A DNA stretch of 34,393 bases from positions 1 through 34,393 of IMG/VR virus record IMGVR_UViG_3300030103_001070, one strand, 5' to 3'. Positions 20,189 through 22,219 of this stretch are shown in pieces. Each line of letters opens with the position of its first letter. Positions within the stretch are counted from its first letter, which is position 1. Under the pieces are notes generated by a model, which did not search any database, had not been told where the DNA came from, and saw nothing but the letters and a program-made list of their open reading frames with translations. Source of the DNA: a virus. The translations under genes and the position numbers were made by a program.

Positions 20189-20380
20189 ATGAGTGAAGTT
20201 AAACCAGTTTTGTTGAGGCTCAGAGCCTCGACCATTGAAATGCTGAAGTCCGAGCTGGATGTGTCGGCTCATAGATCACAGTCGTCGCTTGCCGATGAGC
20301 TGCTAGTCAAACAGCTTGAGGCAAATGCGCGGCAACGCAATATTCAGTTTGAAATGGATCGTCAGGCGGGGCGGGGTTGA
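20189..20380 (+). CDS. RHH-like small DNA-binding protein
   Basis: A 63-residue protein with AAGGG upstream of its ATG. The N-terminus KPVLLRLRASTIEMLKSELD followed by SAHRSQSSLADELLVKQLEA has the strand-helix-helix pattern of Arc/CopG (ribbon-helix-helix) proteins. It is the first gene after the divergent promoter region, a typical place for an autoregulator of early transcription. It overlaps the next gene by one base. The RHH assignment rests on pattern only. Confidence 0.65.
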   Translation: MSEVKPVLLRLRASTIEMLKSELDVSAHRSQSSLADELLVKQLEANARQRNIQFEMDRQAGRG

Positions 20381-20829
20381 TGCGTGCCGGGGGTGGACGC
20401 GCCAAGGGGGCAGCGTTTGAAAGATTTTTGGCAAAAGAGTTTGAGCTTGAACTTGGCTCGGCTGGAAAATGTCAGAGAAACCTTGAGCAATATCAAAAGA
20501 AAAATCTATCAGACCTCACATTTACTGATCCAAGGTTTCCCTTTTTGGTTGAGGCTAAACGCTACAAAGATTCCGTGTCACCTTCTTGGTGGGATCAGAT
20601 AGTTACCGCCGCCCGCACGTCAGACGGCAATCCTAACGACTGCCTGCCGTGCTTGATCTGGAAGCTAGACCGGCAGGACATTAGCGTGCGGATACCCATT
20701 GAGGCACTGGCAAGGTTAGGGCGGCCACTGGCTCAGGATGTGGCTGAGGCATACGACTGGCGGTACACGGCGACGCTGTCTTGGCCTGACTTCATTATGG
20801 TTTGCCGAGACCTGATGGCGAGGGAATGA
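20380..20829 (+). CDS. Holliday-junction-resolvase-like nuclease (PD-(D/E)XK)
   Basis: A 149-residue protein beginning at ATG 20380 (TGATG overlap with the gene before). The Hjc-like motif series is present: KGAAFERFLAKEFE (E14), a basic linker, then D45 in LSDLTFTDPRFPF, and E58/K60 in FLVEAKRYK, followed by WWDQI. This is the arrangement of phage resolvases found next to recombination genes. It would cut branched replication intermediates before packaging. The rest (IWKLDRQDISVRIPIEALAR) fits the fold's later strands. Confidence 0.78.
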   Translation: MRAGGGRAKGAAFERFLAKEFELELGSAGKCQRNLEQYQKKNLSDLTFTDPRFPFLVEAKRYKDSVSPSWWDQIVTAARTSDGNPNDCLPCLIWKLDRQDISVRIPIEALARLGRPLAQDVAEAYDWRYTATLSWPDFIMVCRDLMARE

Positions 20830-20832
20830 GAC

Positions 20833-21798
20833 ATGCTTAGGATGCTCGACCTATTCAGCGGCATTGGTGGATTCAGCTACGCTGGCGAAAAGCTGGTGGG
20901 TGGCTATGAGACAGTCGCGTTCTGCGAGTATGATAAGCACGCGCAGAAGGTCTTGCGTAAGCATTGGCCTGACACAGAGATAATTGATGACGTGAGGGAG
21001 TTAGCTAATGACGCAGAACGGTTCAGAGGATCAGTTGACATTATTTGCGGCGGATATCCTTGCCAGCCCTTCTCGCTTGCCGGGGTCAGACGAGGCGATA
21101 AAGATGACCGACACCTCTGGCCGGAAATGCTTAGAATTATCCAAGCTGTCAGGCCGACTTGGGTGTGTGGAGAAAATGTTGCTGGACACATCTCTATGGG
21201 GCTCGACACGGTGCTTTCTGACTTGGAAGCCGGAGGTTACCAAGCAAGGTGCTTTGTTATTCCGGCTGTCGCCGCGGATGCCCACCACCGCAGAGACAGA
21301 TGCTGGGTTGTGGCCCACAGCGACGACGCAGGACAATCCGCAAGTCAGAGGGCAAGGGAAGACAATCGGAACCAACCGTGGAACGACACTTGGCGGCGCA
21401 GTACGGATGTGGCCGACGCCGGTAGCAGAGGCAGTGAAAATGCAAGAGCCGAAAATGTGGGCAACGCCGACAAAAGCAATAGCCAAAGGATCAACGGCTG
21501 GGAACCCAAACCGTCCGAACAAGGGGGGCGGCAGGGATTTGCGGCAAGATGTGAAGATGTACCCAACGCCAGCTCACCGCGATTACAAGGGGATGTCGGG
21601 CAAGGGCAGGCAGGATCGCAAGGGAAATCCGAAGGATACCCTGCCAAATGCCGTTGGTGGGAGCCTGAACCCGCAGTGGGTCGAGTGGCTAATGGGGTAT
21701 CCGGTCGGGTACACAGACTCAGACAGCTAGGCAATAGCATCGTGCCGCAAGTGGCGGCGCGGATATTATGGGCTATTAAGAAGTCGCACAATGGTTAG
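20833..21798 (+). CDS. C5-cytosine DNA methyltransferase
   Basis: A 321-residue phage-type m5C methyltransferase that would methylate phage DNA, protecting it from host restriction. Motifs in order: I, DLFSGIGGFSYAGE (6-19); IV, GGYPCQPFS with the catalytic C77; VI, ENVAG (114-118); VIII, HRRDRCWVVAH (152-162); and the C-terminal motif X, RLRQLGNSIVPQVAARIL (about 298-315). The region between VIII and X is only about 135 residues, is Asn/Ser/Gly-rich and repetitive (VADAG, VGNAD, VPNAS), and forms a short target-recognition domain. A second long reading frame lies inside residues 59-300. The gene is 3 bases after the resolvase and overlaps the next nuclease gene by 8 bases; no cognate restriction enzyme of a known type is obvious. 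Confidence 0.93.
   Translation: MLRMLDLFSGIGGFSYAGEKLVGGYETVAFCEYDKHAQKVLRKHWPDTEIIDDVRELANDAERFRGSVDIICGGYPCQPFSLAGVRRGDKDDRHLWPEMLRIIQAVRPTWVCGENVAGHISMGLDTVLSDLEAGGYQARCFVIPAVAADAHHRRDRCWVVAHSDDAGQSASQRAREDNRNQPWNDTWRRSTDVADAGSRGSENARAENVGNADKSNSQRINGWEPKPSEQGGRQGFAARCEDVPNASSPRLQGDVGQGQAGSQGKSEGYPAKCRWWEPEPAVGRVANGVSGRVHRLRQLGNSIVPQVAARILWAIKKSHNG
20994..21000 (+). promoter_or_regulatory. Ribosome binding site for the nested reading frame
   Basis: GAGGGAG lies 7 bases upstream of the ATG at 21008, inside the methyltransferase coding sequence. The same GAGGGAG/GGGAGA type of site precedes genes on the leftward operon (for example ahead of the 42- and 57-aa genes), so it is the strong ribosome-site form for this phage. 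It is the best direct sign that translation starts at 21008. Confidence 0.6.
21008..21730 (+). CDS. Overprinted second gene inside the methyltransferase: W-x-T-P repeat protein
   Basis: A 240-codon frame, +1 relative to the methyltransferase, with its own ATG and strong ribosome site. It reads MTQNGSEDQLTLFAADILAS, then TSLWGSTRCFLTWKPEVTKQ and LLFRLSPRMPTTAETDAG, then a series of short motifs LWPTATT, MWPTPVA, MWATPTK and MYPTPAHRDYKG, ending LNPQWVEWLMGYPVGYTD. From memory, similar sequences (S-T-R-C-x-L-T-W-K, repeated (L/M)(W/L/F)PTP, and LNPxFVEWLMGxPxGW) occur in other phages next to or overlapping C5 methyltransferase genes; I could not check this. Several other frames are also open here, so openness alone is weak evidence. 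Function is unknown; a role tied to the methyltransferase or restriction evasion is a guess. Confidence 0.7.
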   Translation: MTQNGSEDQLTLFAADILASPSRLPGSDEAIKMTDTSGRKCLELSKLSGRLGCVEKMLLDTSLWGSTRCFLTWKPEVTKQGALLFRLSPRMPTTAETDAGLWPTATTQDNPQVRGQGKTIGTNRGTTLGGAVRMWPTPVAEAVKMQEPKMWATPTKAIAKGSTAGNPNRPNKGGGRDLRQDVKMYPTPAHRDYKGMSGKGRQDRKGNPKDTLPNAVGGSLNPQWVEWLMGYPVGYTDSDS

Positions 21799-22219
21799 GC
21801 CAATGTATGAGGCTCAGGCCGACCGCAACAACGAACAGCGTGTGACTGAGTTGCTGGCGGAGAGGGGCTACAGCCTCGACAAGCTGCCAATGAGCTTTGG
21901 TTTAGACGTGGCCATAACCGACGATTTTGAAGAAAAGATTGTGGCCTTTGCCGAAATCAAGGCACGCACATTTGAGATGAATAAGTACCCGACGGCGATG
22001 ATTAACCTGCACAAGGTTATCAGGGCGCATGACATTTCCGCTTGCACAGGATTGCCGACGTACTTTATCGTGCTTTACCTCGACGCATTGGTGAGAATAA
22101 ATTTTGCCAGTGAGTTTGAGGTGAAGATGGGTGGCAGGTCAGACAGAGGCGATCCACAAGATCGTGACGTTTGTGCCTTTTATCCAATTGAGGGGTTCAC
22201 GGTCGTGAGCCAATTTTAA
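21791..22219 (+). CDS. Small PD-(D/E)XK-type nuclease-like protein
   Basis: A 142-residue protein beginning inside the methyltransferase stop region (8-base overlap). Candidate catalytic residues are E15 (NNEQRVTELLAERG), D39 in FGLDVAITDD and E55-I-K57 in AFAEIKARTFE, the D ... E-x-K pattern of PD-(D/E)XK nucleases. The later part (TYFIVLYLDALVRINF) supplies the core strand expected for the fold. Pairing with a methyltransferase raises the possibility of a restriction-modification pair, but a phage repair or resolvase-type nuclease is equally possible. Function is inferred from motifs only. Confidence 0.65.
   Translation: MVRPMYEAQADRNNEQRVTELLAERGYSLDKLPMSFGLDVAITDDFEEKIVAFAEIKARTFEMNKYPTAMINLHKVIRAHDISACTGLPTYFIVLYLDALVRINFASEFEVKMGGRSDRGDPQDRDVCAFYPIEGFTVVSQF

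Follow-up and report, generated by a model that had tools for sequence, protein, structure and literature searches.

C5-methyltransferases composed of two polypeptides are known, namely M.AquI and M.EcoHK31I (YGGCCR). In M.EcoHK31I, motifs I-VIII and X are located on the large subunit, to which the predicted recognition domain has been assigned as well, and motif IX is found on the smaller polypeptide; M.AquI is split within the variable region, and its small subunit carries motif IX (PMC3404938). Serial recognition domains within one phage enzyme occur in the multispecific methyltransferases of the Bacillus subtilis phages SPR, SPbeta, phi3T, rho11 and H2, for which the order and exact size of the domains are covered by literature cited in PMC8936443 and PMC12707154. 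Here we describe a locus in a viral DNA of 34,393 nucleotides (IMG/VR record IMGVR_UViG_3300030103_001070, positions 1 to 34,393; this whole stretch is referred to as the window), where the +1 frame of a C5-methyltransferase gene, termed alpha, contains a second gene, termed beta (Table 1). Based on sequence comparison, we consider it probable that the two frames encode two halves of one C5-methyltransferase, with beta most likely representing the specificity half.

Relatives were collected by a viral-contig search with the nested protein (80 loci), by tblastn of phage records (67 loci) and by a profile search of bacterial and archaeal genomes (80 loci in many phyla), amounting to about 165 in all, i.e. 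85 phage or viral loci that were examined and the 80 loci in cellular genomes. Each of the 85 phage and viral loci has the methyltransferase in an identical relative frame, and at 84 of these loci the nested frame is open; the sole relative with a stop in this frame (L072:804) has it near the N-terminal end of the match. The same +1 overlap was found in 80/80 cellular relatives, including members of the Bacillota, Pseudomonadota, Bacteroidota, Acidobacteriota, Chlorobiota and Calditrichota, among others. Within one bacterial class, the family is carried by 13 of 201 sampled genomes (about 6%). To avoid selection through the nested protein, an additional, beta-blind sample was fetched solely with the part of the methyltransferase that precedes the overlap (residues 1-58); all 61 untruncated loci of this sample have the nested tail in the +1 frame and motif X in frame 0. 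Among the best 165 relatives we found no standalone nested gene, only fused and split forms in actinophages.

The translation start of beta is conserved, too. In relatives, its ATG is found at +175 or +172 from the methyltransferase start, and the 55 distinct beta starts comprise 50 ATG and five GTG codons. Of these starts, 49 have a Shine-Dalgarno core (4 bases or more) versus 13% of control positions. The codons AGG and GAG of the ribosome site are kept in 69-72% of same-residue pairs, most upstream neighbour codons in 26-40%. In Paenibacillus phage Shelly, gp56 at the identical nested place has been annotated as 'g55 internal gene'. An earlier inspection of the window without database searches (the sequence-only reading) had called a 240-codon +1 frame with its own GAGGGAG site and at least three (L/M)(W/Y)xTP motifs, and was exact in all of these elements: beta contains MWPTP, MWATP and MYPTP, its first block reads LWPTA and its tail LNPQWVEWLMGYPVGYTD. 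It had further placed sequences of this type beside C5-methyltransferases of other phages, and such homologues indeed exist in independent loci with start codon and motifs preserved.

The nested frame is a genuine protein-coding overlap. In pairs of relatives at 45-65% DNA identity, identity at alpha-frame fourfold sites is 34% (codons 1-58) and 33% (codons 299-321) outside the overlap versus 62%, 65% and 90% in its three parts, and the shift falls at the beta start and the beta stop; the contrast was consistent across other identity bands. A reduction of synonymous change, which the sequence-only reading had named as a check, is thus evident (62-90% inside the overlap, about 33% outside). For closer pairs, in which changes were scored by their effect in both frames, the ratio of nonsynonymous to synonymous substitution (dN/dS) for alpha and beta, respectively, was 0.08 and 0.21 over codons 60-172 (catalytic motifs), 0.60 and 0.18 over codons 173-272, and 0.53 and 0.09 over codons 273-297 (motif-IX position). 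As controls, the +1 frame outside the overlap gave 2.88 and the +2 frame inside it 1.5-3.1. Over codons 173-298 beta is the constrained frame, which suggests that the position of the recognition domain is served by the nested protein and that alpha provides a linker there. A strong double constraint on the target-recognition region, as had been anticipated from the sequence, did not emerge, because over codons 173-272 alpha is relaxed and beta constrained.

In line with this division, alpha resembles a catalytic chain only. The PF00145 match (E 7.9e-39) is restricted to residues 3-177, with motifs I, IV (PCQ), VI (ENV) and VIII present, and the match to HhaI (E 4.6e-29) extends to about residue 167, followed by a weak stretch at motif X. 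AlphaFold models a good fold for the first part of alpha, and the predicted local confidence (pLDDT) is <50 over residues 175-274, for most of them about 30-35. No in-frame motif IX was seen in the overprinted enzymes checked, and the combination of a recognition domain and motif IX in one chain, which marks C5-methyltransferases, is absent from alpha. The stretch where both would be expected (codons 173-298) is a relaxed linker, predicted to be disordered over most of its length.

Beta matches PHROG 1008 (E 5e-32, residues 8-238), and so do all 41 relatives tested. This family, annotated 'DNA methyltransferase', is beta's own; it also matches the tail of the single-chain enzyme gp76 of Mycobacterium phage Rita (2e-61) and gp74 of Mycobacterium phage Pipcraft (1.7e-79). 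In profile-profile comparisons, the nested family and the single-chain tails were related with 97.1-97.2% probability (E 4e-11 to 5e-11). Rita gp76 has the same elements as the locus described here, motifs I-VIII, several LPTP blocks, a motif IX-like segment (RLAPAFSEWMMGWPAGW) and motif X (IGNGVVPQQ), but reads them in one frame as a single chain, with merely a short +1 open reading frame left over the catalytic motifs. Pipcraft gp75, on the other hand, ends soon after motif VIII; the LPTP blocks, IX-like segment and motif X are carried by gp74, a separate downstream gene in the +1 frame ('DNA methylase'). The fetched loci comprised 16 single-chain and 37 split versions (some contigs were counted twice); in the split loci, alpha stops before the motif-IX segment, and soon after motif VIII in the cases read. 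Since PHROG 1008 constitutes the in-frame C-terminal half of single-chain enzymes elsewhere, beta is most likely a structural half of the same enzyme. The split actinophage relatives of the Pipcraft type resemble M.AquI. The overprinted locus differs from M.AquI in having motif X on alpha and in the overprinting of its two genes; a small chain of the M.AquI type with both motifs IX and X was seen only in split actinophage relatives (e.g. L171). The annotations of PHROG 1008 and of the Shelly internal gene state no nested function, and in the literature searched we found no paper explaining the arrangement; one keyword match (PMC11445585) concerns overlapping spanin genes, not methyltransferases.

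Some of the loci use their frames in other ways. In five single-chain actinophage loci (L170:1501-2670, L282, L284, L285 and L295), the nested N-terminal domain and one or two LPTP blocks are still readable in the +1 frame, with the subsequent blocks in frame 0, as though blocks had switched frames. At the loci L345, L355 and L356, the catalytic part itself appears to shift frame (motifs through IV are in one frame and those from VI to VIII, or from VIII on, in the next) and the IX-like tail is in a third frame, which could reflect an assembly indel or a further split.

The middle of beta is highly variable between conserved flanks. Enzymes sharing 91% identity over alpha residues 1-165, and likewise 91% over the motif-IX tail, share 26% in the beta middle, the length of which differs by a median of 35 residues. 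Cutting the beta middle at the WxTP motifs delimited 303 blocks in 115 distinct regions, with a median of 38 residues, which fell into 157 clusters. Common clusters adjoin many different neighbours, cassettes up to 99% identical in DNA adjoin unrelated ones, and clusters such as c02 and c07 were found solely at the last position. The cassettes thus appear to behave like the exchangeable recognition domains of multispecific phage C5-methyltransferases. Recognition domains of the latter are near 40 residues in size. Judging from variability and shuffling, each cassette may read a DNA target. In the window (21308-21454), cassette 1 has WPTA instead of WPTP and cassette 2 consists of only 16 residues, so that one or both may be decayed or fused. 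For beta residues 1-100, upstream of the cassettes, the structure model predicts two helices and a beta hairpin with low confidence.

The array is followed by a near-invariant tail (consensus GSLNPQWVEWLMGYPxGWTD) on the DNA where motif IX would fall. This tail aligns in register with the segment directly upstream of motif X in the single-chain relatives, and the outer frame carries motif X at the usual spacing after it. By eye and position, the tail is also similar to motif IX of HhaI (LxPRECARVMGYPDSY).

According to our proposal, alpha would form the catalytic large domain, its motifs I-VIII and X being tied together by the disordered linker, and beta would be made by internal initiation at its own ribosome site and provide the small domain, consisting of the N-terminal domain, interchangeable target-recognition cassettes led by WxTP (about 38 residues each) and motif IX. 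The two proteins would associate into the active enzyme, in which beta would select the DNA sequence or sequences that alpha methylates, presumably with one target per cassette. The phage may in this way shield its own DNA from host restriction, and cassette exchange would alter the specificity. Such a layout would be akin to M.EcoHK31I, as far as its description rather than its sequence is concerned: motifs I-VIII and X are on alpha and a IX-like tail is on beta (assigned from its position and consensus; no profile match was significant). The small subunit of M.EcoHK31I is reportedly read from another frame inside the large-subunit gene as well. The serial cassettes, as putative recognition domains, would parallel those of the B. 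subtilis phage enzymes; these enzymes, however, are single polypeptides in one frame, whereas the array proposed here is on a separate, overprinted subunit and its cassettes must be stop-free in two frames.

Several points weigh against this proposal and have to be kept in mind. The recognition domain of M.EcoHK31I was placed on the large subunit, where the locus described here has a relaxed, disordered linker, with the variable cassettes on beta. The motif-IX assignment draws on position, spacing to motif X and consensus and is accordingly a putative one. Profiles of beta and of the single-chain tails retrieved no methyltransferase among solved structures (the tails gave only a chance match), and hhalign of beta with classical C5-methyltransferases, of which only four sequences were used, gave no support. 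AlphaFold modelled beta alone poorly (mean pLDDT 52, predicted template modelling score 0.22), and Foldseek found no structural match to this model, a blank that is to be expected at a pLDDT of only 52. The pairwise counts in the constraint analyses are not independent, as pairs share ancestry, yet the contrast is large. Finally, single-chain actinophage enzymes retain raised +1-frame constraint upstream of the cassettes (fourfold sites, +1 frame over the last catalytic motifs: 0.62 versus 0.44), which a simple two-half model leaves unexplained. Searches of Pfam, NCBIfam and solved structures with beta returned nothing meaningful; a match to Csf1 (E 1.2) was dismissed as chance.

What else could the nested frame be? 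Its length is insufficient for claiming a gene: a +1 opening as long or longer arises with p = 1e-4 on codon-order shuffles of the methyltransferase and with p = 0.0018 on synonymous-codon shuffles (mean opening 129 codons), and because the latter reach it, the length is only moderately unusual. These fairly long openings would suit a frame that is open merely as a by-product of codon bias or alpha composition, but the comparative evidence is decisive. Fourfold-site conservation is confined to the overlap, dN/dS is well below 1, start codon and ribosome site are conserved, and homologues exist outside an overlap, so that a random open reading frame is ruled out and the probability of a by-product is negligible. 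The sequence-only reading had instead pictured a regulator or a linked anti-restriction protein. An independently started, conserved protein that always accompanies a methyltransferase would be compatible with a separate regulator, inhibitor or anti-restriction protein overprinted inside a complete methyltransferase. This role was not borne out: alpha is incomplete, as motif IX and a folded recognition domain are missing from it; in the 3' part that both genes share, constraint is stronger on beta; and the beta family forms the C-terminal half, in frame, of single-chain C5-methyltransferases. Such an identity has no family support and no PADLOC match, and we regard it as very unlikely.

Programmed frameshifting from alpha, resulting in one fused alpha-beta protein rather than two subunits, is called to mind by the single-chain versions in actinophages, some of which have cassettes in both frames. 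We consider it highly improbable, although no search aimed at a slippery site was made, as both the start codon and the ribosome site of beta are conserved, and as a shift near the cassettes would skip beta residues 1-100, which are under purifying selection (0.21); moreover, motif X stays in the alpha frame, so that a fused product would need a second shift back. Another idea is that beta is required for methylation as a structural or allosteric partner whose cassettes do not read DNA; recognition by the cassettes is deduced solely from variability and shuffling, and beta lacks a confident model. Yet strong variability between conserved flanks, together with cassette exchange, is typical of recognition domains and hard to fit to a scaffold, which makes a purely structural role unlikely.

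With the two-halves proposal as a basis, we lean slightly towards the broader view that the locus represents a widespread, ancient class of methyltransferases with catalytic and specificity subunits in two frames and with combinatorial cassettes that are exchanged among phages, each open in both frames. If true, such a class would amount to an overprinted counterpart, at a single locus, of the split into M and S subunits in Type I systems, with multi-target specificity. The locus is a well-supported and widespread example of a long same-strand overlap whose upkeep has a concrete reason, since its two products seem to be the two halves of the same enzyme. Single-chain, split and overprinted forms of one enzyme allow the history of the overlap to be traced. 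Annotations of family members often say no more than 'DNA cytosine methyltransferase' or 'hypothetical protein', and the specificity subunit of many predicted methyltransferases may therefore be overlooked. Provided that the shuffled cassettes are indeed recognition modules, they would supply naturally occurring parts for setting methylation specificity, and the way in which multispecific methylation evolves in phages could be tested directly.

Table 1. Features of the alpha/beta locus, given in positions of the window
Feature	Position	Strand	Remarks
Alpha, C5-methyltransferase frame, 321 aa	20833..21798	+	Motifs I-VIII and, after a long low-complexity linker, motif X
Alpha motifs I (DLFSGIGGF), IV (GGYPCQPFS, catalytic Cys77), VI (ENV) and VIII (HHRRDRCWVVAH)	20848..21318	+	Family match
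Beta ribosome-binding site GAGGGAG	20994..21000	+	Made by alpha codons V54-R55-E56; 7 bases to ATG
Beta, overprinted +1-frame gene, 240 aa	21008..21730	+	ATG start; proposed specificity subunit (recognition cassettes and motif IX)
Beta N-terminal domain, residues 1-100	21008..21307	+	Overprints alpha motifs IV-VIII
Putative recognition cassette 1, LWPTATTQDNPQ..., 33 aa	21308..21406	+	
Alpha codons 173-272	21349..21648	+	Linker in alpha frame, cassette array in beta frame
Putative recognition cassette 2, MWPTPVAEAVKMQEPK, 16 aa	21407..21454	+	Short
Putative recognition cassette 3, MWATPTKAIAKGS..., 34 aa	21455..21556	+	Cluster c13
Putative recognition cassette 4, MYPTPAHRDYKGM..., 34 aa	21557..21658	+	Cluster c02
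Beta motif IX-like tail, GSLNPQWVEWLMGYPVGYTD	21659..21718	+	Near invariant
Alpha motif X (RQLGNSIVPQVA)	21721..21756	+	

Genes for PDDEXK-type proteins are found on both sides of the methyltransferase. Downstream, a PDDEXK endonuclease gene (21791-22219; PF24579, E 7.5e-28) starts within the last methyltransferase codons. Of the 37 relatives in which the PF24579 gene was found, 30 have it between -19 and -4 relative to where the methyltransferase frame ends, which makes co-translation probable. The pairing of this endonuclease with the methyltransferase could be restriction-modification-like or serve recombination. Upstream, 3 bases separate the methyltransferase from the end of a second PDDEXK-type gene (20377-20829; PF24608, E 5.9e-11; PHROG 244, RusA-like resolvase), and the PF24608 gene is common to 40 related loci.
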